Shown one piece after another: positions 1 through 12,614 of a stretch of 64,000 nucleotides of DNA. Each line of letters starts with the position of its first letter. Within the stretch, counting starts at the first letter, position 1. The DNA is taken from contig NZ_JACSEU010000001.1 in the NCBI RefSeq assembly GCF_014334335.1, forward strand, positions 1,426,001-1,490,000, written 5' to 3'. The notes under the pieces were generated by a model, which was not told the DNA's origin, ran no database searches, and worked only from the letters and a program-made list of their open reading frames with translations. This DNA is from Treponema sp. Marseille-Q3903. GTDB taxonomy: Bacteria; Spirochaetota; Spirochaetia; Treponematales; Treponemataceae. The translations under genes were made by a program, and so were the position numbers.

Positions 1-774
1 GTTTATATTCATGACGGTGATTATGAAGACGCAAAAGATTCAGATATAGTTATTTTTACTTCCGGCGTTGGCAGAAAACCTGGTCAGTCACGTCTTGATT
101 TGACTCAGACAAACGTAAATATTGCAAAATCAGTTATACCTCTTATTACTAAGGCTGCTCCAAACGCCCTTTATCTTATTGTCGCAAACCCTGTAGATAT
201 TCTCACATATTTGTTTGTAAAAACATCAGGCATCCCGGCAAGTCACATCTTCGGTACGGGAACAATGCTCGATACCGCTCGTTTCCGTGCACGCATTGCA
301 GAAACTTACAGAGTCGGTGCAACAAATGTTCACGGATATGTATTTGGTGAACACGGTGATTCATCTTTTGTCCCATGGTCATTGGCAAACATCGGTTCAA
401 TTCCCGTAGACAGTTTTGCATCAAGCTTTACAGGTAAAAAACTTCCTGATTTCAATAAAGACGATATTGAAGATTATATCCGTAAGTCTGGAGGAATCAT
501 CATCAATGCTAAAAAATTTACAAACTACGGTATTGGAGCAACTACAGCTGACCTTGTAGACGCTTTGAAATACAGCACGGACTCTGTCCTTACAATTTCT
601 TCGATGATGAACGGTGAATACGGAATCAATGATGTATGTATTTCTATTCCGACGTTGATTGGACAAAATGGAATTAAAGGTCACCTCGCTGCTCCGCTTA
701 CAGATGATGAAGTTACAAAACTCCGTCACTCTGCAGATTGTCTTAAAGATATTATCAAACAGATTGAATTTTAA
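1..774 (+). CDS. mdh: Malate dehydrogenase of the LDH-like family (5' end outside window)
   Basis: NAD-dependent oxidoreductase that would interconvert oxaloacetate and malate in the cytoplasm. The frame is open from base 1, so the N-terminal Rossmann glycine motif lies upstream of the window. Visible family motifs are VANPVDILTY, LDTARFRARIAE (substrate-carboxylate Arg) and GEHGD with the catalytic His. The substrate loop reads SGVGRKPGQSRLDL. Lactate dehydrogenases carry Gln at the position of the first Arg (codon 73-75), while malate dehydrogenases carry Arg, so malate specificity is favoured although the overall sequence is LDH-like. Fumarase follows after 50 bases and fumarate reductase genes lie further downstream, which fits a reductive C4 branch. 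L-lactate dehydrogenase is the main alternative. Confidence 0.82.
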   Translation, partial: VYIHDGDYEDAKDSDIVIFTSGVGRKPGQSRLDLTQTNVNIAKSVIPLITKAAPNALYLIVANPVDILTYLFVKTSGIPASHIFGTGTMLDTARFRARIAETYRVGATNVHGYVFGEHGDSSFVPWSLANIGSIPVDSFASSFTGKKLPDFNKDDIEDYIRKSGGIIINAKKFTNYGIGATTADLVDALKYSTDSVLTISSMMNGEYGINDVCISIPTLIGQNGIKGHLAAPLTDDEVTKLRHSADCLKDIIKQIEF

Positions 775-824: not shown

Positions 825-2216
825 ATGGAATATAAAATTGAACATGATTCAATGGGCGAAGTAAAAGTTCCTGCAGATAAATACTGGGGAGCTCAAACTG
901 AACGAAGCCACGAAAACTTTGATATTGGTGTTGGAATTGAAACAATGCCGCGCGAAATAACTAGAGCTTTCGGTTACTTAAAAAAAGCTGCGGCAATGGC
1001 TAACAATTCCCTAAAACCAGAGAAAATGACTGACGAAAAACTCAAGGTAATTTCTCAGGCATGTGAAGAAGTTATAAATGGTTCATTAAACGAACACTTC
1101 CCTCTCGTAGTCTGGCAAACAGGTTCCGGCACTCAGAGCAATATGAATGCAAACGAAGTCATCGCTAACAGGGCTAATGAAATAGCAGGAAAAAAGCTTT
1201 GCCATCCAAACGATGATATCAACATGAGTCAGTCTTCAAACGACACTTTCCCGACAGCGCTTCATATCTCTGCTGTATTTGTGATTGAAGATAAACTTAT
1301 TCCGGCAATCGATACTCTTGTTTCAACTTTCAAAAAACTTGAAAAAGAAAACGAAGGAATTGTAAAATCAGGACGCACACACCTTCAGGACGCTGTTCCT
1401 ATCGCTTTTGAACAGGAAATAAGCGGCTGGAGAACTTCTTTGGAACGCGATAAAGAAATGCTTTTATCTTCACTCCCTTACTTAAAGCAGCTCGCACTCG
1501 GAGGAACTGCAGTTGGAACAGGATTAAACGCTCCAAAAGGGTTTGATAAAAAAGTTGCGGAATGCGTTTCAAAACTCACCGGAAAAGATTTTATTACAGC
1601 TCCTAACAAGTTCCACGCACTGACATCTAAAGATGAACTTGTATTTGCTCACGGTGCAATTAAAGCACTTGCAGCCGATATGATGAAGATCGCAAACGAT
1701 GTTCGCTGGCTTGCTTCGGGTCCTCGTGATGGACTTGGCGAGATTTTTATTCCGGAAAACGAACCCGGCTCTTCAATCATGCCTGGAAAAGTAAATCCTA
1801 CACAGTGTGAAGCAGTTACAATGGTTGCCGTTCAGGTTATGGGCAACGATGCTGCTGTCGGTTTTGCTGCATCTCAAGGTAACTTTGAATTAAATGTCTT
1901 TATGCCGGTGATCGCTTACAATTTTATTCAATCTGCACGTTTGCTTGCAGAATCTATGGTTTCATTCAATAAAAATTGTGCAGTTGGTATAAAAGCGAAC
2001 AAAGAAAAAATGCATCACAACCTTTACAACTCGCTTATGCTTGTCACAGCGTTGAATCCATATATAGGATATGAAAACGCAGCAAAGACAGCGCATAAAG
2101 CATTTGATGAAAACATAAGTCTAAAAGAGGCGTGCGTAGGACTCGGTTTTCTCACAGCAGAAAAATTTGACGAAGTATTTAAACCGGAGAGTATGGCTTT
2201 TCCCCAAAGTAAATAA
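825..2216 (+). CDS. fumC: Fumarate hydratase, class II
   Basis: Reversibly hydrates fumarate to L-malate; an oxygen-stable, iron-free homotetramer in the cytoplasm. The 463-residue length is normal for class II fumarase. Signatures in order are GSGTQSNMNANEV, QSSNDTFPTA, SGRTHLQDAVP and the fumarase/aspartase superfamily signature GSSIMPGKVNP with its mobile-loop catalytic Ser. The aspartase and argininosuccinate lyase alternatives are less likely given the GRTHLQDA motif and the position between malate dehydrogenase and fumarate reductase genes. The ATG at 825 has AAAGGA about ten bases upstream. The gene sits 27 bases before hdrB, so co-transcription with the redox genes is likely. Confidence 0.95.
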   Translation: MEYKIEHDSMGEVKVPADKYWGAQTERSHENFDIGVGIETMPREITRAFGYLKKAAAMANNSLKPEKMTDEKLKVISQACEEVINGSLNEHFPLVVWQTGSGTQSNMNANEVIANRANEIAGKKLCHPNDDINMSQSSNDTFPTALHISAVFVIEDKLIPAIDTLVSTFKKLEKENEGIVKSGRTHLQDAVPIAFEQEISGWRTSLERDKEMLLSSLPYLKQLALGGTAVGTGLNAPKGFDKKVAECVSKLTGKDFITAPNKFHALTSKDELVFAHGAIKALAADMMKIANDVRWLASGPRDGLGEIFIPENEPGSSIMPGKVNPTQCEAVTMVAVQVMGNDAAVGFAASQGNFELNVFMPVIAYNFIQSARLLAESMVSFNKNCAVGIKANKEKMHHNLYNSLMLVTALNPYIGYENAAKTAHKAFDENISLKEACVGLGFLTAEKFDEVFKPESMAFPQSK

Positions 2217-2243: not shown

Positions 2244-3038
2244 ATGATATATTCTTATTTCCCAGGATGTACGCTTAAAAACAAGGCTCAGGATCTTGAT
2301 TTTTATGCACGTAAATCTGCGGAAGCATTAGGATTCACACTTGAAGAAATTCCCGACTGGCAATGCTGTGGTGGTGAATACCCTATGGCAACAGATGAAA
2401 TTGCAACAAAACTTTCATCTGTTCGTGCTCTTGCAGATGCACAGAAAAAAGGTCATGAATTAGTAACTCTTTGTTCCGCATGTTACAATGTCATTAAACA
2501 GGTAAATAACGATGTTGCGACTGACGAAACAATCGACTTCAAGGTGAACAATTATCTCAAACAAGATGAGATTGAGTACCACGGAGAAACTAAAGTTCTT
2601 CATTATCTTGAAATTCTCCGCGATGTTGTTGGCTGGGACAACGTTAAAAAAGCTGTAAAAAATCCATTTACCGGTAAAAAAATCGGTGCGTATTACGGCT
2701 GCCTTTTACTGCGTCCTGCAAAAGTTCTTCAGCTTGACGATCCTGAAGATCCAAAACTCCTTGAAGACTTTATCAAAGCAATCGGTGGTACTCCTGTTAT
2801 CTATGCACAGAGAAATGAATGTTGTGGTGCGTACACAATGTTCGAAGATAAATCTATCCCACAAAAACGCGTTAAGACTATTTTGAATAATGCTGAAGAC
2901 ATGGGTGCAGACTTCCTTGCTACAAGCTGCCCTCTCTGCCGCTATAATCTCCTAAAAAATAAAGGTGAATCAAAACTTGACGTAATTTATTTTACAGAAT
3001 TGCTTGCGCAAGCCCTCGGATTAAAGGAGGCAAAATAA
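2244..3038 (+). CDS. hdrB: Heterodisulfide reductase subunit B-like protein (two CCG domains)
   Basis: Cytoplasmic subunit that in Hdr complexes carries two noncubane [4Fe-4S] clusters and the disulfide-reducing site. Both CCG domains are complete in 264 residues: C9, C41-C42, C77-x2-C80 and C153, C193-C194, C230-x2-C233, with spacings close to the family pattern. Loss of cysteines would have argued for a purely structural role, but none is lost. The ATG at 2244 follows AAAGGAG. It is the first of a run hdrB-hdrC-hdrA-flxD-flxC-flxB-flxA. The physiological acceptor is not evident, since a Treponema would not be expected to use CoM-S-S-CoB. A DsrC-like thiol protein, or direct relay to the fumarate reductase encoded downstream, are possibilities. 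Confidence 0.88.
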   Translation: MIYSYFPGCTLKNKAQDLDFYARKSAEALGFTLEEIPDWQCCGGEYPMATDEIATKLSSVRALADAQKKGHELVTLCSACYNVIKQVNNDVATDETIDFKVNNYLKQDEIEYHGETKVLHYLEILRDVVGWDNVKKAVKNPFTGKKIGAYYGCLLLRPAKVLQLDDPEDPKLLEDFIKAIGGTPVIYAQRNECCGAYTMFEDKSIPQKRVKTILNNAEDMGADFLATSCPLCRYNLLKNKGESKLDVIYFTELLAQALGLKEAK

Positions 3039-3041
3039 ATT

Positions 3042-3431
3042 ATGGAAAACAAAGAATACTTAAAGGAAACCGTACTCATAAAAAGCGGTGTTAATCCTAA
3101 AAAGTGCATGGTTTGTGGAAAATGTTCAGCGACATGCCCAAATTATGACGCTATGGAATACCATCCGCATCAGTTTGTGCAGATGGTTGAAAACGGTGAC
3201 CTTGAAAAACTCATGCAATCAAAATCTATATATGCATGTTTGAGTTGTTTTGCCTGCCTTGAACGATGCCCTCGTCAAGTTGAACCTGCAAAATTGATCG
3301 ATGCAGTACGTCAAGTTGTCGAAGGACAGCGAGGTCATCACCATTTAGATCCAAGTCAGGTGCCGGAATTTTTGGATGATGATATGCCGCAACAGGCTAT
3401 TGTCAGTGCCTTCAGAAAATACAAGAAATAG
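3042..3431 (+). CDS. hdrC: Heterodisulfide reductase subunit C-like ferredoxin
   Basis: Small electron-transfer subunit linking HdrA to HdrB. The 129 residues contain two [4Fe-4S] motifs, C22-x2-C25-x2-C28-x3-C32 and C66-x2-C69-x2-C72-x3-C76, the second in the family form CLSCFACLERCP. There are no membrane segments, so this is the soluble HdrABC type and not the membrane-bound HdrDE or DsrMK type. The start lies three bases after the hdrB stop, with its ribosome-binding site (AAAGGAGG) inside the hdrB end, indicating translational coupling. hdrA follows after nine bases. Confidence 0.87.
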   Translation: MENKEYLKETVLIKSGVNPKKCMVCGKCSATCPNYDAMEYHPHQFVQMVENGDLEKLMQSKSIYACLSCFACLERCPRQVEPAKLIDAVRQVVEGQRGHHHLDPSQVPEFLDDDMPQQAIVSAFRKYKK

Positions 3432-3440
3432 GTTTAAAAA

Positions 3441-5453
3441 ATGGAAAGAATTGGTGTTTTTGTATGTCACTGTGGCACTAACATTGCAGGAACAGTTGAC
3501 GTAGCTAAAGTCGCAGAAGAACTAGGTAAAGTGCCAGGAGTTGCTTATTCAACACACTACACTTACATGTGTTCATCTGCCGGTCAGCAAATGATTGAAG
3601 ACCACATAAAAGATGATAAATTAACAGGAGTTGTCCTTTGTTCATGTTCTCCACGCATGCACGAGAAAACATTCCGTTCGTGTGCTGAAAGAGCAGGTCT
3701 CAATCCTTATAAAGTTGAAGTTGCAAATATCCGTGAGCAGACATCGTGGGTTATGAAAGATATTGAAAAAGCGACAGAAAAAGCTATTGCCCTTGGTAAA
3801 GCGGCTGTCGCAAAAGCGATCCTTGATACTCCACTAACCCCTGGTGAAACTCCGATGACAAAACGTGCGTTGGTAATAGGCGGTGGAATCGCAGGTATTA
3901 CAGCAGCTCTCGATATTGCAGATGCAGGATTCCCAGTTGATATCGTAGAAAAAGACTACACTGTTGGTGGAAAGATGGCTAAACTCGATAAAACTTTCCC
4001 AACTCTCGACTGTGCGTCTTGTATTGTCACTCCAAAGATGACGGAAGTCAGCCAGAATTCGAACATACGCATCCTTTCTTATTCGGAAGTATGCAGAGTC
4101 AGCGGTTATATTGGAAACTTCGAAATTGATATAAAACGTCATCCTCGTTATGTCGATGAAGTAAAATGTACAGGTTGCGGTGCTTGTGTTGAAAAATGTC
4201 CGAACAAGAAAGTTCCGAACGCTTTCAATTTGAACTTGAACAACAGAAAGGCAATCGATATTCCTTTTGCGCAGGCTGTTCCAAAGATTGCAAATATTTC
4301 TCCATTGCATTGCCTTCACATGAAAGGGCTTCAAAACGGTAAAGACAATGTTTGCGGATTCTGTGAAAAAGTTTGTGCTGCCGGTGCAATCGACTTCCAT
4401 CAAAAAGAAAAAATTATTACAGAAAAATATGGTGCAATTGTCGTAGCTACAGGCTACAACCCGATAGAACTCGAAAAATTTGACGAATACGCTTATAACC
4501 AGAGCCCTGATGTCGTGTCTTCTCTTGAATTTGAACGACTGTGCAACGCTTCAGGTCCTACAAACGGTCATCTTCTCCGTCCATCAGATGGAAAAGAACC
4601 AAAGACAATCGTATTCGTTCAGTGTGTTGGTTCTCGATGTTCTGCAGATTCAACAAAAGGTCATGAATATTGTTCTAAGATTTGTTGTATGTATACTGCA
4701 AAGCACGCAATCCTAACACGCGACCATTATCCTGACACAGAATGTTATGTATTTTACATAGATGTACGAACGCCCGGTAAACTATTTGATGAATTCTACC
4801 GCCGTGCCGTTGAGCAATACGGTGTACATTACATAAAAGGTCAGGTAGGAAAAGTTACTCCTCAAGCTGATGGAAGCCTCGATGTTCAGGGTTCAGACTT
4901 GATTTTGAACAAACAGCTCCACATCAAAGCTGACATGGTTGTGCTTGCGGCATCTATTGAACCTGATAAATCTGCTCGTCCACTTGCAACAATGCTTACA
5001 ACTTCAATGGATAACAACGACTTTTTCCTCGAAGCTCATGCAAAACTTCGTCCTGTTGAATCTCCAACTGCCGGTATTTTCCTTGCAGGTTGCTGTCAAG
5101 GACCAAAAGATATTCCTGAAACAGTTGCGCAGTCATCAGGTGCTGCAGCAAAGGCTATCTGTCTGCTTGTAAAAGATAAACTAAAAGGTGACCCTTGTAC
5201 TGCAAATCCAAATGAAAATATGTGTAATGGTTGTGAACAGTGTGCAAATGTTTGCCCTTACGGAGCTATCACTTATGTTGATAAGGACTTCCGTGGTCCA
5301 AACAGAACAACAATCACACGTCACGTTTCTCAGGTAAACAGTGCAATGTGTCACGGTTGTGGTGCTTGTACAGTTACTTGTCCTTCAGGTGCTATGGATC
5401 TCAGAGGATTCAGCAATAAACAGATTTTGGCGGAGGTTGATTCCGTATTATAA
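3441..5453 (+). CDS. hdrA: Heterodisulfide reductase subunit A-like flavoprotein
   Basis: FAD-containing hub of soluble Hdr complexes, and the site of flavin-based electron bifurcation in characterised HdrA proteins. In 670 residues there is an N-terminal domain beginning IGVFVCHCGTNI, an FAD-binding Rossmann motif (GGGIAG near residue 147) followed by GGKMAKLDKTFPT and a CASC pair, an inserted ferredoxin motif near 243 (CTGCGACVEKCP), a further cysteine set near 305, and two C-terminal [4Fe-4S] motifs near 595 and 637. Length and order match full-length HdrA. Subunits B, C and FlxD flank it. Whether it bifurcates cannot be read from sequence alone. Confidence 0.88.
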   Translation: MERIGVFVCHCGTNIAGTVDVAKVAEELGKVPGVAYSTHYTYMCSSAGQQMIEDHIKDDKLTGVVLCSCSPRMHEKTFRSCAERAGLNPYKVEVANIREQTSWVMKDIEKATEKAIALGKAAVAKAILDTPLTPGETPMTKRALVIGGGIAGITAALDIADAGFPVDIVEKDYTVGGKMAKLDKTFPTLDCASCIVTPKMTEVSQNSNIRILSYSEVCRVSGYIGNFEIDIKRHPRYVDEVKCTGCGACVEKCPNKKVPNAFNLNLNNRKAIDIPFAQAVPKIANISPLHCLHMKGLQNGKDNVCGFCEKVCAAGAIDFHQKEKIITEKYGAIVVATGYNPIELEKFDEYAYNQSPDVVSSLEFERLCNASGPTNGHLLRPSDGKEPKTIVFVQCVGSRCSADSTKGHEYCSKICCMYTAKHAILTRDHYPDTECYVFYIDVRTPGKLFDEFYRRAVEQYGVHYIKGQVGKVTPQADGSLDVQGSDLILNKQLHIKADMVVLAASIEPDKSARPLATMLTTSMDNNDFFLEAHAKLRPVESPTAGIFLAGCCQGPKDIPETVAQSSGAAAKAICLLVKDKLKGDPCTANPNENMCNGCEQCANVCPYGAITYVDKDFRGPNRTTITRHVSQVNSAMCHGCGACTVTCPSGAMDLRGFSNKQILAEVDSVL

Positions 5454-5543
5454 CTTCATGCCGATACGCTGATAAACGCAGAGCTTTGTTGCTGCGAGAA
5501 TCAGTAAGATGTGCGTAGTTATAACTTATGGAAGAATAAGATT

Positions 5544-5984
5544 ATGAGTGAAAATAAATCATGGACACCTAAAATTGTAGCTTTCTGCTGTAACTGGTGT
5601 TCTTATGCAGGTGCCGATTTGGCTGGTAACAACCGTCTCGAATATCCTGGAAACGTAAAAATTATCCGCATTCCTTGCTCATGCCGCTTGAATCCTTTAT
5701 TTATTTTGAGGGCATTTCAGCGAGGAGCTGACGGTGTTATTTTGTGTGGATGTCACCCCGGAGATTGTCACTACTCTACCGGGAACTATTTTGCACGCCG
5801 TCGCATGACACTTCTTTTCTCTATGCTCGACTTTCTCGGCGTAGAAAAAGGCCGAACTCGTGTTGAATGGTGTTCCGCTGCCGAAGGTGTTCGCTTTGCG
5901 GGAATAATGAACGACTTTGTAAAGCAAATCACTGAACTTGGTGAAAATAAGAAACTGGAGGATGTAAGATGCAAGACAAATTAA
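5544..5984 (+). CDS. flxD: MvhD/FlxD-type iron-sulfur subunit
   Basis: Small subunit that passes electrons into HdrA in Mvh-Hdr and Flx-Hdr complexes. The 146-residue product begins with the family's N-terminal cysteines (AFCCNWCSYAGADLAG) and continues with IPCSCRLNP, DGVILCGCHPGDCHY and a late WCSAAEG, which together supply the ligands expected for MvhD-type cluster binding. The ATG at 5544 is chosen because GGAAG lies nine bases upstream; an in-frame ATG at 5511 lacks a good site. The gene overlaps the next one by 16 bases. With no hydrogenase genes nearby and an NAD-binding subunit downstream, FlxD fits better than MvhD of a hydrogenase complex. Confidence 0.82.
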   Translation: MSENKSWTPKIVAFCCNWCSYAGADLAGNNRLEYPGNVKIIRIPCSCRLNPLFILRAFQRGADGVILCGCHPGDCHYSTGNYFARRRMTLLFSMLDFLGVEKGRTRVEWCSAAEGVRFAGIMNDFVKQITELGENKKLEDVRCKTN

Positions 5985-6937
5985 TCGCTCGTGCTAAAGA
6001 ACTTCTTGCCTCTGGAAAAGTTCATAAAGTTGTAGGCTGGAAAAAAGGTCTTTTTGATGATGATATCACACCTGCTGTTTTCAACAGTGCGGAAGAATTA
6101 GATAAAGATTTTGTCTTTAATAAATATTGTAAAGCAAATCTTTCAAAATATCTGGTAAAAATTACACAGGAAATTGAAATTGCGAAGAGCACAACAAGGA
6201 TGAATAATTCAATGGCTAAACAGCGTGATCCGAATGCTGAAGACAAGCCTATTCCTCAGGCTGTCGCTCTTGTATTTCTCAAACCAAGCGATACTTATTC
6301 TTTTACTCAGCTTTTGAAAGAAAAGCGCATCACACGCGAAGACGTCTATGCAATCGGAGTTCCTTGTCAGGACACACTTGACGGTCAAGATGTCTGCAAG
6401 TCTTGCAAAGGGAAAAAACATGTCTCTTGCGATGAATTGATTGGCGTTGATGAAGCAAAAGAAGCAGAACTTGAACCAAATACAGAGCGCATGGAAGAAG
6501 TTGCAAAGTTTGAAGCAATGACAACTGAAGAACGCTATGAGTTTTGGAGAGACGAATTCAGCAGATGTATTCGATGCAATGCATGCCGCAACGTTTGTCC
6601 AGCATGTACTTGCGAAAAGTGCGTATTCGACAACAACGACCTCTACACTTCACAAAAAGTTGCTCAGACTAGTTTTGAAGAAGATTTGTTCCACATAATT
6701 CGTGCATGGCATGTTGCCGGACGATGTACGGACTGTGGAGAATGTTCCCGTGTTTGCCCTCAAAATATTCCGTTGTATCTTTTGAACAGAAAATTTATAA
6801 AAGATATCAATGAAATCTATGGGGAGTATCAGGCTGGCGCTGATATGGAATCAAAACCGGCTATGCTCCACTATGAAACAACTGACCCTGAAACAACAAT
6901 TGTCTACGACAGATCAAAAGATGGAGGTGAAGAATAA
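5969..6937 (+). CDS. FlxC-like iron-sulfur protein with two [4Fe-4S] motifs
   Basis: Probable electron-transfer subunit between the flavin subunit and FlxD/HdrA. The 322 residues include a central GVPCQ segment with a four-cysteine patch (C133, C143, C146, C154), resembling the GxPCQ region of FrhB/FdhB-like proteins, then a ferredoxin-type pair: CIRCNACRNVCPACTCEKC and CTDCGECSRVCPQNIP. It starts inside the end of flxD with GGAGG just upstream. The next gene starts in a TAATG one-base overlap, so this is a tightly coupled operon. The FlxC name rests on position and cluster content only. Confidence 0.65.
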   Translation: MQDKLIARAKELLASGKVHKVVGWKKGLFDDDITPAVFNSAEELDKDFVFNKYCKANLSKYLVKITQEIEIAKSTTRMNNSMAKQRDPNAEDKPIPQAVALVFLKPSDTYSFTQLLKEKRITREDVYAIGVPCQDTLDGQDVCKSCKGKKHVSCDELIGVDEAKEAELEPNTERMEEVAKFEAMTTEERYEFWRDEFSRCIRCNACRNVCPACTCEKCVFDNNDLYTSQKVAQTSFEEDLFHIIRAWHVAGRCTDCGECSRVCPQNIPLYLLNRKFIKDINEIYGEYQAGADMESKPAMLHYETTDPETTIVYDRSKDGGEE

Positions 6938-8007
6938 TGCTATCTATTTCAAGCGATAAAATTGATTCATTATTTGAGCTTATCGGTTCAAAACAGCCTT
7001 TATATTTGCCTGTAGACAATAAAACAGGTAAAGCCGATTTCAAAAAGTGGGAAAAAGGCGTAAAACTCTCAAATAATTTAAAAACAGTTCGTTCCGCTAA
7101 AGATTTTTTCTTTCCTAAAGCAGAAAGAATTGTTGATTATAAAGTTGACGGCAAAAACGTCACTGTAGAAGATCCGAGAAAAGACATAGAAGACTTTGTT
7201 GTGTTCGGTGTTCGCTCTTGTGATGCAGTCGGTTTTTCTGTTATCGACAACGTATACCTCAATATGGCACCTGTAGATTCTTACTATAAGAATCGCCGTG
7301 AACACGGAACAGTTATCGTCCTCGCTTGCAATGAGCCGGAGAAAACTTGTTTTTGTTCTACGTATGGAATTGACGCAGCATTGGAATCAGATAAAAACGG
7401 CTCTTCTGGAGATGTAAGTGCATGGCTTTCAGATGGAAAATACTTTTTTAAGGCGAATACCGAAAAAGGTAAAAAATTTGTGGAAGCAGCTAAAACTCTT
7501 CTCACAGAGTCTGATGAAAAAGCTGTTGATGCAGTAAAAAAAGAAATCAAAGCAAAAATCGAAAAACTTCCATTCGCGCATCTCGATATCTCAAAATTCG
7601 GAAAAGTTTCACCTGCCCAGATGAATACTATTTTCAACTCAAAGATTTGGGAAAAAGTTGCAGAGCCGTGCGTAGGATGCGGGTCTTGTACGTATGTATG
7701 CCCAACATGTATGTGTTTTGATGTTCGGGACTTTGATACGGGTAACGGAATCAGACAAGTACGATGCTGGGATTCATGTATGTATTCTGATTTTACACAG
7801 ATGGCTGGAGCTAACCCTCGTGTTTCTCAAAAGGAAAGGAGCCGTCAGCGTTTTATGCACAAACTCGTTTACTATCCGATGGCTCACGAAGGCTTGTTCC
7901 AATGCGTAGGATGTGGACGTTGTCTTGAAAGCTGCCCTGTCAACATGAACATTGTGAAAGTAATCAAAGCCGTTCAGGAAACAGATGATATTGGAGGTGA
8001 TAAATAA
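6937..8007 (+). CDS. FlxB-like / AsrA-HydB-like 4Fe-4S dicluster protein
   Basis: Iron-sulfur subunit related in pattern to anaerobic sulfite reductase A and sulfhydrogenase beta subunits, which pair with an NAD(P)H-flavin subunit. In 356 residues it has FGVRSCDA and CNEPEKTCFC in the N-terminal half and two C-terminal [4Fe-4S] motifs, CVGCGSCTYVCPTC and CVGCGRCLESCP. A lysine-rich middle section separates them. Its partner is the next gene, two bases downstream, which has the FAD/NAD fold expected of AsrB/HydG/FlxA. The FlxB name is inferred from that pairing and gene order. A dedicated sulfite reductase is unlikely because no siroheme subunit is encoded here. Confidence 0.68.
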   Translation: MLSISSDKIDSLFELIGSKQPLYLPVDNKTGKADFKKWEKGVKLSNNLKTVRSAKDFFFPKAERIVDYKVDGKNVTVEDPRKDIEDFVVFGVRSCDAVGFSVIDNVYLNMAPVDSYYKNRREHGTVIVLACNEPEKTCFCSTYGIDAALESDKNGSSGDVSAWLSDGKYFFKANTEKGKKFVEAAKTLLTESDEKAVDAVKKEIKAKIEKLPFAHLDISKFGKVSPAQMNTIFNSKIWEKVAEPCVGCGSCTYVCPTCMCFDVRDFDTGNGIRQVRCWDSCMYSDFTQMAGANPRVSQKERSRQRFMHKLVYYPMAHEGLFQCVGCGRCLESCPVNMNIVKVIKAVQETDDIGGDK

Positions 8008-8009
8008 TT

Positions 8010-8840
8010 ATGGAAGATAAAGAATCATTTATCCCTTACGTAGGAAAAATAATTGATATCAAGCAGGAAACTCCCGATGTAAAAACATTCAGCGTAGTTG
8101 GGCTCGATGGAAAGAAACTGTTCGACCACATCCCTGGTCAGTGTGCAATGCTGATAGTTCCAGGAGTTGGAGAATCGATGATATCTATTACATCATCTCC
8201 TACTCTGGAAACTCACATGGAATTCTCCATTAAAAAATGCGGTTGTGTAACAGACTGGCTCCATGCTGCCGAAATCGGGCAACAAATTTGTGTTCGAGGT
8301 CCAATCGGAAACGGATTCCCAGTTGATACAAAATTAAAAGGAAAAGATATTCTTGTAATTGCCGGCGGTATCGGGATTGCTCCTGTTCACTCAGTAGTAA
8401 ACTACATGATGGATCATCGCTCCGATTATGGAAAAATTCAGGTAATCTATGGTTCTCGTTCAATGGCAGACTTAGTTCGCCTTGAAGAAATGCAAAACGT
8501 GTGGATGAAACAGCCAAACTGCTCAATTGACCTTACAATTGACCGTGCAGAAGAAGGATGGAAAGGTCACGTAGGTTTTGTTCCTCCTTTTGTAACGGAA
8601 TGTAACCCTGACCCAAGCATGACAGTAATCATGTGTGGACCTCCAATTCTCATCCACCTTTCTCTTGATGCTTTGAAAAAACTTGGTTTTAAAGATCAAC
8701 AGGTTTTTACAACAATGGAGATGAGAATGAAATGTGGTATTGGTAAATGTGGACGCTGCAATATCGGTGATAAATTCGTTTGTAAAGACGGCCCTGTATT
8801 CAGCTTTGACCAGTTAGGTGAATTACCGCCTGAGTATTAA
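8010..8840 (+). CDS. flxA: FlxA-like FAD/NAD(P)H-binding oxidoreductase subunit
   Basis: Likely entry point for NADH electrons. The 276-residue protein has the ferredoxin-reductase fold: an FAD-binding barrel (PGQCAMLIVPG, then MISITSSP as the flavin motif), an NAD-binding segment (VIAGGIGIAPVHSVVNY) and a C-terminal cysteine motif CGIGKCGRCNIG ending with a further Cys, as in PyrK/AsrB [2Fe-2S] proteins. It closes the hdr-flx run and is followed after 57 bases by the fumarate reductase genes. NADH versus NADPH preference cannot be decided by eye. Alternatives are an AsrB-type sulfite reductase subunit or a PyrK, both poorly supported by context. Confidence 0.78.
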   Translation: MEDKESFIPYVGKIIDIKQETPDVKTFSVVGLDGKKLFDHIPGQCAMLIVPGVGESMISITSSPTLETHMEFSIKKCGCVTDWLHAAEIGQQICVRGPIGNGFPVDTKLKGKDILVIAGGIGIAPVHSVVNYMMDHRSDYGKIQVIYGSRSMADLVRLEEMQNVWMKQPNCSIDLTIDRAEEGWKGHVGFVPPFVTECNPDPSMTVIMCGPPILIHLSLDALKKLGFKDQQVFTTMEMRMKCGIGKCGRCNIGDKFVCKDGPVFSFDQLGELPPEY

Positions 8841-8897
8841 TTTATTTCACGCGGATTTTACAATGACAATCCAAGTGGAAATCTTAAGGAGCATTAG

Positions 8898-9581
8898 ATG
8901 TCTGAAAAAAAAGAAATGGCTACAATCTATATTTTTGGGAAAAAATATGATGTACCTGCTGAATTAACAATTATGAACGCCATGGAGTATGCTGGATATC
9001 AGCTTAAACGTGGCTGTGGATGTAGAAACGGTTTTTGCGGTGCTTGTGCTACAATTTATCGTATTAAGGGAGAAAACCAATTACAGACTTGCCTTGCATG
9101 TTCTAAGAAAGTTGAAAACGATATGTATATTGCTACACTTCCTTTCTTTCCTCTTGTAAAACAGATATACGATATCGGTAAACTTAAACCAGAACAGGCT
9201 GTTATGATGCAGCTCTATCCTGAAATATATGCATGTGTCGGATGCAACGCATGTACACGCGCTTGTCCTCAGGAATTGAGCACTATGCAATACATAGCTT
9301 ATGCTCAACGCGGTGATTTTGCAAAATGTGCAGACCTTTCTTTTGACTGCGTAATGTGCGGCTGCTGCTCATCTCGTTGTCCGGCAGGAATTTCTCATCC
9401 GCAGGTTGCAGAACTTGCACGTCGTTTGAACGGTAAATACATTCAGCCTCAATCGCAGCATCTTCTTGACAGAGTTGCAGAAATCGATGAAGGCAAATGC
9501 CAACACGCTTTGGATGAAATGATGAACAAACCTTTGAACGAAATCAAAAATCTTTACAATACTCGTGATATCGAGAAATAA
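8898..9581 (+). CDS. Fumarate reductase iron-sulfur subunit (FrdB/TfrB N-half-like)
   Basis: Electron-wire subunit for the flavoprotein encoded next. The 227 residues carry an N-terminal [2Fe-2S] ferredoxin domain (C42, C47, C50, C65, with an extra C40) and two [4Fe-4S]-type motifs: C113, C116, C119, C123 and C151, C154, C157, C161. Classical FrdB has one [2Fe-2S], one [4Fe-4S] and one [3Fe-4S] cluster and partners with a membrane subunit, which is not encoded here. Methanogen TfrB joins a FrdB-like half to an HdrB-like half. This protein corresponds to the first half only, with hdrB supplied separately upstream. AAGGAG precedes the ATG at 8898. Confidence 0.8.
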   Translation: MSEKKEMATIYIFGKKYDVPAELTIMNAMEYAGYQLKRGCGCRNGFCGACATIYRIKGENQLQTCLACSKKVENDMYIATLPFFPLVKQIYDIGKLKPEQAVMMQLYPEIYACVGCNACTRACPQELSTMQYIAYAQRGDFAKCADLSFDCVMCGCCSSRCPAGISHPQVAELARRLNGKYIQPQSQHLLDRVAEIDEGKCQHALDEMMNKPLNEIKNLYNTRDIEK

Positions 9582-9592
9582 GGAAGGCGAAT

Positions 9593-11236
9593 ATGTACGG
9601 AAATTATCTTGATGATGATGCAAAAATTGTTGCACAAAAACGTGATGAAAACCTTAAATTTGAACATGCTCGTCTTACCGCAGATGAAAAAGACGAGTTG
9701 CTCTTAAAATTCCACCCTGACAGAATCAAGAGCCAGTTTGAAGAATTAAAGATCGGTCCTAATAAAGGACAAAAAGCTCCTCTTGAGCTTACAGCAATGC
9801 TCGAAGCAAAACCTCGCATTGAACCTGAAAAAATAGACTTAAATCATGTTGATTATGAAACTGATGTTCTTGTAATCGGTGGCGGTGGAGCCGGTACTTC
9901 TGCCAGCATCATGGCAGCTGAAGCAGGTGCTAAAGTATTGCTTGTTACAAAACTTCGCGTCGGCGATGCAAACACAATGATGGCTGAAGGTGGAATTCAG
10001 GCAGCAGACAAGCCAAATGATTCTCCGGCTCAGCACTATCTCGATGCTTTTGGAGGCGGACATTTTGATGGAAAACCTGAGCTTGTCTCTACTCTTGTAA
10101 ACAAAGCTCCCGGAGTAATTAAATGGCTCAACGACCTTGGTGTAGAATTTGACAAAACTGCAGATGGAACAATGATCACTACACACGGTGGTGGAACAAG
10201 CAGAAAGAGAATGCACGCTTGTAAAGATTATTCTGGTGCAGAGATAATGCGTACGCTTCGTGATGAAACATTTAACCGCAGTGATTCTATAACTGTTGTC
10301 GATTTTACGTCAGCAATCGAACTTATCAAAAATGACAAAGGTGAAGTTTGCGGTGCGGTTTTAATGAACATGGAAACAAATGAAATTCTCATCGCAAAAG
10401 CAAAAGTTGTCATCATTGCAACAGGTGGGGCCGGACGCATGCACTATCAGGGTTTTCCAACTTCCAACCATTACGGTGCAACTGCAGACGGTCTTGTAAT
10501 AGCTTATCGTGCTGGAGCAAAACTTCTTTATCAAGATTCTTTGCAATATCACCCAACAGGAGCTGCTTACCCAACACAGATTCTCGGCAAACTTGTAACA
10601 GAAAAAGTTCGTTCGCTCGGTGCAAAACTCATCAACAAAAACGGTGAAGTTTATATCCATCCGCTGGAAACTCGCGACGTAAATGCTTCAGGTATCATCC
10701 GTGAAGTGAAAGAAGGTCGCGGAGTTAAAAACGATGTTCAAGATGCTGTTTGGCTCGACACTCCAATGATTGAAATGATTCATGGAGAAGGAACTATATT
10801 AAAATCAATCCCTGCAATGTACAACATGTTCATCAAATACGGCATAGATATCCGTAAGGAGCCAATCCTAGTTTATCCAACACTCCATTATCAAAACGGC
10901 GGTGTTGAAATCGATAAAACTTGTCACACAAACATCGCAAATCTTCTTGTTGCGGGAGAAGCTTCAGGAGGTGTTCACGGAACAAACCGTCTGATGGGCA
11001 ACTCTCTGCTTGATGTTGTTTTGTTCGGTCGTGAAGCCGGAATTGAAGCTGGAAAGATGTTTAAGAATATCAAAATTTCTGAAACAGGAAAAATGAATCT
11101 CGACCATGTAAAGGCATTTGAAAAGGAACGAAATGCGGCTGGCATTAAGTCTGAAGAAATTTCTCCAAAACTTTTGCCACGTTATACGCACGGGAACCCT
11201 GAATTTGAAAAGGCAATTCCTGGTGCGACAAAGTAA
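9593..11236 (+). CDS. Soluble fumarate reductase flavoprotein subunit (FrdA/TfrA-like)
   Basis: Catalytic subunit reducing fumarate to succinate at FAD. After an unusual 88-residue charged N-terminal extension come the Rossmann motif (VIGGGGAGTSA at about 94-104), HACKDYSG, QYHPTGA with H320, ETRDVNASG with the catalytic-type R361, and AGEASGGVHGTNRLMGNSLLD. These are the substrate residues of the SdhA/FrdA/NadB family. The His that covalently holds FAD in E. coli FrdA is replaced by N127, so the flavin should be noncovalent. L-aspartate oxidase was considered, but the adjacent FrdB-like gene and the malate-fumarate context favour fumarate reductase. A strong terminator lies downstream. Confidence 0.85.
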   Translation: MYGNYLDDDAKIVAQKRDENLKFEHARLTADEKDELLLKFHPDRIKSQFEELKIGPNKGQKAPLELTAMLEAKPRIEPEKIDLNHVDYETDVLVIGGGGAGTSASIMAAEAGAKVLLVTKLRVGDANTMMAEGGIQAADKPNDSPAQHYLDAFGGGHFDGKPELVSTLVNKAPGVIKWLNDLGVEFDKTADGTMITTHGGGTSRKRMHACKDYSGAEIMRTLRDETFNRSDSITVVDFTSAIELIKNDKGEVCGAVLMNMETNEILIAKAKVVIIATGGAGRMHYQGFPTSNHYGATADGLVIAYRAGAKLLYQDSLQYHPTGAAYPTQILGKLVTEKVRSLGAKLINKNGEVYIHPLETRDVNASGIIREVKEGRGVKNDVQDAVWLDTPMIEMIHGEGTILKSIPAMYNMFIKYGIDIRKEPILVYPTLHYQNGGVEIDKTCHTNIANLLVAGEASGGVHGTNRLMGNSLLDVVLFGREAGIEAGKMFKNIKISETGKMNLDHVKAFEKERNAAGIKSEEISPKLLPRYTHGNPEFEKAIPGATK

Positions 11237-11306
11237 TAGCGTCCTTTAGTCAATTTGTCATGAGAATTGTTTTGCGGTTCTCAAAAATTTATGACTTGGT
11301 ACGATG

Positions 11307-11340
11307 TTGCCTCAGTTTTTTGCGACTGAGGCAATTTTTA
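11307..11340 (+). terminator. Rho-independent terminator of the mdh-to-frdA operon
   Basis: A perfect 10-bp stem (11307-11316 with 11325-11334) around an 8-base loop is followed by TTTTTA. It lies 70 bases after the frdA stop. Confidence 0.9.
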
Positions 11341-11411: not shown

Positions 11412-12614
11412 ATGGCTGCTTATTTTGCTGGGGTTATAGCTTCGACCCTGTCATTTATTTTCGTTATTTTTGCCATTGGAACAATTGGGTATCTTATCGG
11501 TGCAATCAAGATTAAAGGTATTGAACTTGGAACTGCAGGGGTATTGCTTTTTGCACTGATTTGGGGAGTCATTATCAATTTTATCCCATCGTTTAAAATC
11601 GATGATAAAGAGATCATATTGTGGTCTTCAAAGATAAAAGGAAACTTCAGCATTGTTTCTAGTATCGGAACGGCATTGTTTGTAACTGCTGTAGGTCTGA
11701 TTGCAGGTCCTAAATTTTTCCGTTCATTCAATAAAAATACACTTTCATACATTGTGATAGGTTTTGTTGTAATTTTGCTCGGAGGTTTAACAGCTATTCT
11801 TTTTATATTGTTAGACAAAAATATGTCTTCATCTATGGCTGTCGGACTTTTGACAGGTGGGCTTACATCAACTCCAGGTTTTAGCTCCGGTAAGGAAGTT
11901 GTCACTGCTATTGAAGAAGATGTGACTGCAGGCTACGGCATCGCATATACATTTGGTGTTCTTGGTGTTGTTCTTTTTGTACAGATTATGCCAAAAATCC
12001 TAAAAGTCAACATGGAAGAAGAAGTCGCTCATTTTCAGGCAGCAAATCAGATTCAGATTCCGCAACCAAAAGGAAGGCTTGTCGCAGTCGACCCATTCGG
12101 ATTTTTTGCATTTTTTCTTGCAGTTTCACTTGGCTGTCTTATCGGTTCAATAAAAATTCCCGGAATTAACTTTTCTCTCGGTAATTCCGGCGGTTGTTTG
12201 ATTGGCGGTCTTATAGTTGGGCACTTCGCTCATCTTGGGAACATTGACTGCCGCCGCAAAAAAGAGACATTGAACTTTATGCGCGAATTGGGACTTGTTT
12301 TGTTTCTCATCGGAGCTGGAGTCCCAGGAGGCGTAAACTTCATCACTAAATTCCGATGGACATACTTTATCTATGGGGCTGTAATGACGACTGTTCCAAT
12401 GGTCGTAGGCTATATAATTGCGCGTTATGTGTTCAAGCTGTCAATATTGAACAATCTAGGTTCAATCACAGGTGGAATGACTTCTACTCCTGCTCTGGGA
12501 ACTTTGATAGCTACTGCCGGTACAGATGAAGTCTCTGCCGCATATGCTGCAACTTACCCTTTCGCTCTTGTATCAGTTGTACTTGTCGCAAAGATAATCA
12601 TTATGGTGTTCTAA
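11412..12614 (+). CDS. AspT/YidE-family permease, putative dicarboxylate or succinate exporter
   Basis: Integral membrane transporter of the aspartate:alanine exchanger superfamily. The 400 residues form two homologous membrane halves (roughly 1-200 and 225-400) with about ten hydrophobic segments. Each half holds the diagnostic motif: GLLTGGLTSTPGFSSGKE in the first and GSITGGMTSTPALGTL in the second. The central TrkA-C domains found in many AspT proteins appear to be missing, with only a short hydrophilic linker present. The family includes Corynebacterium glutamicum SucE, a succinate exporter. Placement directly after the fumarate reductase operon makes succinate or another C4 acid a reasonable substrate, but this is inference; amino-acid exchange is also possible. 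Confidence 0.72.
   Translation: MAAYFAGVIASTLSFIFVIFAIGTIGYLIGAIKIKGIELGTAGVLLFALIWGVIINFIPSFKIDDKEIILWSSKIKGNFSIVSSIGTALFVTAVGLIAGPKFFRSFNKNTLSYIVIGFVVILLGGLTAILFILLDKNMSSSMAVGLLTGGLTSTPGFSSGKEVVTAIEEDVTAGYGIAYTFGVLGVVLFVQIMPKILKVNMEEEVAHFQAANQIQIPQPKGRLVAVDPFGFFAFFLAVSLGCLIGSIKIPGINFSLGNSGGCLIGGLIVGHFAHLGNIDCRRKKETLNFMRELGLVLFLIGAGVPGGVNFITKFRWTYFIYGAVMTTVPMVVGYIIARYVFKLSILNNLGSITGGMTSTPALGTLIATAGTDEVSAAYAATYPFALVSVVLVAKIIIMVF

Follow-up and report, generated by a model that had tools for sequence, protein, structure and literature searches.

A hdrBCA-flxDCBA-frdBA gene cluster in Treponema sp. Marseille-Q3903 and its relatives, with fumarate as the proposed high-potential acceptor of an Flx-Hdr complex

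The gene cluster and its neighbours

The 64,000-nucleotide stretch of the Treponema sp. Marseille-Q3903 genome analysed here (hereafter the window) harbors nine separate open reading frames (ORFs) located head to tail on the forward strand in the order hdrB-hdrC-hdrA-flxD-flxC-flxB-flxA-frdB-frdA (2244-11236), with adjacent genes overlapping by no more than 16 bases or separated by gaps of no more than 90 bases. Gene names were assigned from Pfam and NCBIfam profile matches, which, together with the ORFs, bear out the nine genes, their order and their strand as named in the original prediction made from the sequence alone; the genes are not literally "fused", as stated there, each of them being an ORF of its own. 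The arrangement exceeds chance, given its conservation across genomes, and the operon is a further case of a layout and coupling of Flx-Hdr with fumarate reductase that have already been proposed.

The first seven genes have the features of a FlxABCD-HdrABC complex, including flavin adenine dinucleotide (FAD) and NAD domains in FlxA, the iron-sulfur proteins FlxB and FlxC and an MvhD-like FlxD adjoining HdrABC. Both features of an HdrABC-type complex are also present, namely an FAD domain with cluster cysteines in HdrA and two CCG motifs in HdrB. HdrA could be aligned with 8rvu_a (residues 3-669) and 5odc_A (residues 3-668) at 636.3 bits, and its cysteine motifs, the C-terminal ferredoxin-like cysteines included, align with those of the 8rvu HdrA. 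The flxD gene more likely starts with the ATG at 5544 than with the GTG at 5511.

Table 1 Features of the window in and around the hdr-flx-frd cluster (LDH/MDH, lactate dehydrogenase/malate dehydrogenase)
Feature	Position	Strand	Evidence and remarks
LDH/MDH-family dehydrogenase, perhaps malate dehydrogenase	1..774, cut by window edge	+	Full ORF of 313 aa in the genome, L154:6834-7775
fumC, class II fumarase	825..2216	+	TIGR00979, 706.1 bits (cut-off 664.75); 27 bases 5' of hdrB
hdrB with two CCG domains, proposed to pass electrons to FrdB	2244..3038	+	Profiles, ten cluster Cys
hdrC, two [4Fe-4S] (4Fe-4S dicluster)	3042..3431	+	Profiles
hdrA, FAD subunit, proposed bifurcation site	3441..5453	+	HdrA2, 764.6 bits, under the model cut-off of 1100
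flxD (FlpD/MvhD-like), link to HdrA	5544..5984	+	PF02662, 177.4 bits; the only match in the genome
flxC, 4Fe-4S protein	5969..6937	+	Profiles
flxB, 4Fe-4S protein, AsrA/ShyB-like (sulfhydrogenase beta-like)	6937..8007	+	Profiles; co-occurrence with FrdA
flxA, FAD/[2Fe-2S] protein, AsrB-like, proposed NADH oxidation	8010..8840	+	NAD_binding_1, FAD_binding_6, DHODB_Fe-S_bind
frdB, ligands for [2Fe-2S] and two [4Fe-4S]	8898..9581	+	Profiles, alignment
frdA, flavoprotein, fumarate-site residues, no covalent-FAD His	9593..11236	+	TfrA, 339.3 bits, under the cut-off of 718
Intrinsic-terminator-like hairpin 3' of frdA	11306..11335	+	12 pairs, 5 of them G-C
AspT-family transporter, candidate succinate carrier	11412..12614	+	Profiles; lies beyond the terminator-like site

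No terminator had originally been seen until after frdA, which agrees with the strongest forward-strand site being the hairpin 3' of frdA but leaves out a weaker site at the flxA end (8814-8833); terminator-like sites as a whole occur at chance level (12 observed versus a mean of 11.0 in shuffles). The transcription unit probably starts upstream of hdrB, considering the short gaps to fumC and the LDH/MDH-family gene. The product of the latter clears the thresholds of two models for L-lactate dehydrogenase, yet it has Arg in a GRKPG motif, which we take to be the specificity position, where Arg is typical of malate dehydrogenase; this residue would fit a malate-fumarate-succinate path. Several loci of the family likewise have a relative of the AspT-family transporter 3' of frdA, and the abstract of PMC9527358 places a succinate exporter in this transporter family.

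Catalytic residues and genome setting

Residue alignments drew on 99 loci and comprised 83 FrdA rows (at least 450 aa, no X) and 69 HdrB rows (at least 240 aa). Four fumarate-site residues of FrdA are present in 83/83 rows and a fifth one in 80/83 (three gaps), and the position of the covalent-FAD His is occupied by Asn in all 82 of the 83 rows that have a residue there. Each of the ten HdrB cluster cysteines, belonging to both CCG sites, is kept in 68 or 69 of the 69 rows. The alignments for structure work comprised 33 FrdA and 36 FrdB sequences chosen from these rows. The predicted FrdA fold is closest to flavocytochrome c3 fumarate reductases.

TfrB of thiol:fumarate reductase unites parts resembling FrdB, HdrC and HdrB, and three proteins of the cluster match different stretches of one TfrB model, namely FrdB at 19-94 (36.5 bits), HdrC at 133-216 (27.1 bits) and HdrB at 265-487 (30.7 bits), all of these matches being weak. 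As FrdA in turn finds its best NCBIfam match in TfrA, a known enzyme, methanogen TfrAB, combines such parts. Unlike in TfrAB, in the window the CCG part forms a protein of its own, HdrB, no CCG match was found in FrdB by profile searches, and the scores are far under the thiol:fumarate reductase cut-offs (Table 1 for TfrA; 36.5 versus 385 bits for FrdB). The best match of HdrB is SdhE of the 8-methylmenaquinol:fumarate reductase SdhABE (147.6 bits, with the cut-off of 500 not reached), compared with 138.2 bits for the HdrB model.

Neither the covalent-FAD His nor UbiA, both expected of a membrane quinol:fumarate reductase, was found, and there is no membrane anchor subunit among the genes from fumC to the terminator-like site, the stretch to which that search was limited. 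No UbiA-type prenyltransferase was matched at E ≤ 0.001 in the genome, which is given as 98.66% complete, with 14/14 control genomes being positive. UbiA is required for known quinones, and the host seems unable to make them. The genes rnfC, D, G, E, A and B are consecutive in the genome and adjoined by an apbE-like gene, with the rnfG score being under its cut-off; this operon provides an outlet for reduced ferredoxin, and, taken together with the lack of a UbiA match, makes a membrane quinol route to fumarate unlikely. HdrA (E ≤ 1e-30), FlpD and FrdA (E ≤ 1e-60) are each present in the genome in one copy.

Linkage of the two halves and exchange of the donor

The family survey included 145 genomes, of which 73 possess FrdA and 69 possess FlxB (both in 68, FrdA only in five, FlxB only in one, neither in 71). 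Conserved synteny, which the original prediction had proposed as a check, was found, the Flx-Hdr and fumarate reductase halves being contiguous in 66 of the 74 family genomes with either protein: in 61 they lie no more than 2.5 kb apart on the same strand, and in five more flxA adjoins frdB at a contig end (G117, G129 and also G055, G079 and G105, which have their halves on different contigs but, given this adjacency, were not taken as splits; G and L numbers denote genomes and loci). Another four genomes are cut by contig ends (G030, G069, G139, G143). The six one-sided genomes (G069, G117, G129, G139 and G143 without FlxB, G030 without FrdA) were not counted as exceptions since in each of them either the match or the cluster extends to the end of a contig.

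What weighs against a functional unit of the two halves is that in four of the 70 resolvable family genomes (G023, G096, G107, G098) they are apart, being separated by intervening genes or placed on different contigs. A conserved split had been named beforehand as an observation that would refute the idea, and a split is seen in these four genomes, all of which retain both halves. In G107 and G098 (loci L050 and L056, respectively) hdrB is also not directly preceded by fumC, which points to a rearrangement extending beyond the flxA-frdB junction.

In a sample of the phylum FrdA was found in 33/296 genomes. One of these genomes, G368, has genes for fumarase, HdrA, HdrC, HdrB, FrdB and FrdA in a row and no flxABC matches. 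A single 810-aa ORF of G368 (L043:7918-10350) contains HdrA and a FlxD-like end (a weak match, 29%), so that this genome possibly has an HdrA-FlxD fusion. Very long ORFs with several HdrA-like stretches occur elsewhere in the phylum, in a distantly related family (G181:C38:14833-19257, 1701 aa; G147:C1:590456-594838, 1480 aa).

More widely, genome contigs were scanned with a FrdB alignment, and the best 80 of 568 loci encoding a relative were inspected, with record titles covering many bacteria and archaea, the latter including Heimdallarchaeota, Bathyarchaeota and Thermoplasmata. An hdr gene is present in 62/80 loci, and hdrB lies less than 400 bases before frdB in 38/80. Eight of the 18 loci with no hdr gene have less than 3.1 kb of upstream sequence, and ten have more than 6.8 kb; among the latter ten, two have Flx-like genes and two have hydrogenase genes. 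Six genomes of these ten loci were checked, of which five carry HdrB elsewhere and one, that of L066, has no HdrB match. FrdBA genes with no hdr gene nearby occur in L062, L065, L066, L071, L107 and L135, mostly titled WOR-3 or Stahlbacteria, and such hdr-less loci could be fed by another donor.

Regarding donor modules, flxA and flxB are found in 14 loci, a Vhu/Mvh-type hydrogenase in 29 (both hydrogenase genes in 22 of them) and neither in 37, the labels being rough as "neither" or "other" takes in loci that end early, which blurs the tree labels. The Flx genes are on the same strand as frdBA in 12/14 loci and on the opposite strand in L062 and L067. Genes resembling kor are present in 34/80 loci and class I fumarase genes in 10/80, whereas none of the 80 loci was matched by the class II fumC of the window used as a query. 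The hydrogenase, kor and class I fumarase marker queries were chosen by eye and then checked against profiles: VhuG and VhuA were under their cut-offs, the fumarase subunits above theirs, and the kor-like markers matched 2-oxoacid:acceptor oxidoreductase subunits, the substrate of which would presumably be 2-oxoglutarate.

On a quick FrdA tree of 83 rows, 66 of them from the scan, the Flx label needs 9 changes, of which at least 6 fall on starred branches, and the Mvh label needs 14, with at least 9 on such branches; these numbers are below those of all 500 shuffles. Thus, the donor module clusters on the tree but has been switched repeatedly. The tree includes L040, labelled Flx; this locus was rejected as a case of Flx-Frd lacking Hdr because of a run of N in the flxC region, HdrA being located elsewhere on the same contig. 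Due to the same run of N the join of the L040 cluster to its upstream genes is unreliable. A search for ORFs with two markers in the loci from L040 on, made because gene fusion could serve as evidence of contact, revealed no frdB-hdrB fusion, one locus with a flxC-flxD ORF and one with an mvhG-mvhA ORF. The genome of L108, titled Clostridiales bacterium A05DMB-I-28, shares its class with G395, an Aminicenantes record, and the title may be wrong.

Proposed electron path, alternatives and known systems

On balance, it is rather likely that FlxABCD, HdrABC and FrdAB form one soluble complex, in which fumarate serves as the high-potential acceptor in NADH-driven ferredoxin reduction. FlxA would oxidise NADH, and the electrons would pass via FlxB, FlxC and FlxD to the FAD of HdrA, where they would be bifurcated, one branch leading to ferredoxin and the other passing through HdrC and then HdrB, with its two noncubane clusters, to FrdB. 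From FrdB they would reach the non-covalent FAD of FrdA, and fumarate supplied by FumC would be reduced to succinate, giving in sum 2 NADH + Fd(ox) + fumarate → 2 NAD+ + Fd(red)2− + succinate. Rnf would then convert reduced ferredoxin (Fd) into an ion gradient. That HdrB would pass electrons directly to FrdB is suggested because HdrB, HdrC and FrdB match stretches of TfrB and because hdrB stands immediately 5' of frdB in many loci.

The equation originally put forward had one NADH, while two are needed to deliver two electrons to each branch. Placing fumarate at the high-potential end is consistent with the gene content, with HdrA being single, the conserved residues, the lack of a UbiA match, the Rnf operon and the conserved linkage, but bifurcation itself is not provable from sequence; like complex formation, the HdrB-to-FrdB transfer, the direction and the product, it is what we infer from the genes. 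No biochemical assay of coupling between Flx-Hdr and a fumarate reductase was found in the literature. The potential of the fumarate/succinate couple is about +33 mV. With −320 mV for NADH and −420 mV for ferredoxin, as given in a passage of PMC5861303, a hand calculation from standard potentials yields about −49 kJ/mol, the fumarate branch contributing −68 and the ferredoxin branch +19.

The same gene content could also belong to a non-bifurcating NADH:fumarate oxidoreductase that passes all NADH electrons to fumarate with HdrA as a mere relay; electron flow from NADH to fumarate is strongly downhill, with no second acceptor needed, and homology alone is no proof of bifurcation, as pointed out in part of the review PMC5861303. 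However, HdrA retains the cysteines of the solved HdrA aligned with it, including the C-terminal ferredoxin-like ones, and a relay would hardly require HdrABC, yet this type of FrdBA occurs with hdr genes in 62/80 loci, so we regard this explanation as unlikely.

Less likely still is that one operon encodes two enzymes, with Flx-Hdr reducing a disulfide at HdrB and a small dithiol or thiol protein feeding FrdAB. In its favour, HdrB retains both CCG sites, and the parts have a known relative in the methanogen thiol:fumarate reductase. In TfrB it is the CCG part that oxidises thiols. FrdB has no match to this part, and no thiol-carrier gene was seen among those ORFs of the unit that are at least 80 aa long, to which the search was limited, although passages of PMC11636981 give a DsrC-like carrier as one option for the Riftia symbionts.

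The complex might also run in reverse, making NADH by confurcation from succinate oxidation together with reduced ferredoxin, since such complexes are reversible in principle. In E. coli FrdA mutants loss of the covalent-FAD His is reportedly tied to lost succinate oxidation, and flavocytochrome c3 fumarate reductase is a one-way enzyme. With Asn replacing this His in 82/83 rows, a predicted FrdA fold closest to flavocytochrome c3 and neighbouring genes that suit a path from malate to succinate, reverse operation appears highly improbable, even though succinate oxidation is discussed in passages of PMC9723716 for an archaeal sdhA and hdr cluster. It is just as improbable that FrdAB acts as a soluble fumarate reductase served by a different donor and placed beside Flx-Hdr for regulatory reasons only: frdBA is apart in four of the 70 resolvable family genomes, and 10/80 wider loci have no hdr in more than 6.8 kb upstream (one such genome having no HdrB match), but all six one-sided family genomes are cut at contig ends, and the linkage is seen repeatedly in both bacteria and archaea, alongside differing donor modules.

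In having seven subunits the Flx-Hdr half resembles FlxABCD-HdrABC of Desulfovibrio vulgaris, which is said to have been linked by Ramos in 2015 to ethanol metabolism, not to a fumarate reductase. The original prediction knew of no described system of this make-up; novelty can no longer be claimed since both layout and coupling have been proposed for Pseudoclostridium thermosuccinogenes (PMC7282089, 2020, citing a 2019 preprint), with related coupling in PMC6315080 and PMC8542988. According to the passages bearing on it, the "succinate operon" of P. thermosuccinogenes is assumed to couple fumarate reduction to ferredoxin reduction, and it was about 4-fold upregulated under CO2 limitation, with significance not reached in every subunit (PMC7282089). 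Compared by gene listing, it likewise comprises a fumarate hydratase gene, seven Flx-Hdr genes by locus-tag range and two fumarate reductase genes. It belongs to a different organism; a hypothetical, possibly transporter, gene is listed with that operon, whereas in the window a terminator-like site precedes the transporter gene (PMC7282089).

Tubeworm symbionts possess tfrAB, flxABCD-hdrABC and korABCD, that is, genes for NADH input, Hdr and fumarate reductase clustered as in the window, where no kor genes were seen in the unit, unlike in this reductive tricarboxylic acid cycle cluster (passages of PMC6315080 and PMC11636981). Direct electron hand-over to thiol:fumarate reductase has been proposed for these symbionts (PMC6315080, PMC11636981), with tfrAB being an exception to the shared expression pattern (PMC11636981). 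Hdr and fumarate reductase are also found together in the Mvh-Hdr-thiol:fumarate reductase-OGOR cluster of Ca. Celaenobacter (Cloacimonadota), which has hydrogenase input where the window has Flx, and part of the same paper gives heterodisulfide as the general Mvh-Hdr acceptor (PMC8542988). In Moorella MetFV-HdrABC-MvhD, HdrABC similarly has an enzyme module rather than a disulfide at its acceptor end, the acceptor being methylene-tetrahydrofolate there and, as proposed, fumarate in the window (a passage of PMC5861303). Contents of the 2019 preprint aside, the present analysis contributes a survey of how the halves are linked, where they are split and how donors are exchanged, and it shows that three subunits match TfrB.

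We hold it possible, with slightly more doubt than confidence, that HdrABC-FrdAB, widespread in bacteria and archaea, serves them as a donor-independent and perhaps ancient core of quinone- and membrane-free fumarate reduction, with fumarate replacing heterodisulfide and the donor being exchanged between NADH via Flx and H2 via a Vhu/Mvh-type hydrogenase. Reduced ferredoxin would then go to Rnf in the window organism and to 2-oxoacid synthesis where clusters contain kor-like genes.

To our knowledge, bacterial HdrABC often has no known high-potential acceptor, and use of the coenzyme M/coenzyme B (CoM/CoB) heterodisulfide is not expected in such bacteria. Nevertheless, the CoM/CoB heterodisulfide is still given as the acceptor in work on WOR-3 published in 2025 (PMC12542636). 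Fumarate is a candidate high-potential acceptor that can be read from the genes. If this is true, energy would be conserved by fumarate reduction in the cytosol and independently of quinones, the fermentation yields of such succinate formers would need recalculating, and in several uncultured groups the same core would tie reductive carbon metabolism to H2 or NADH.

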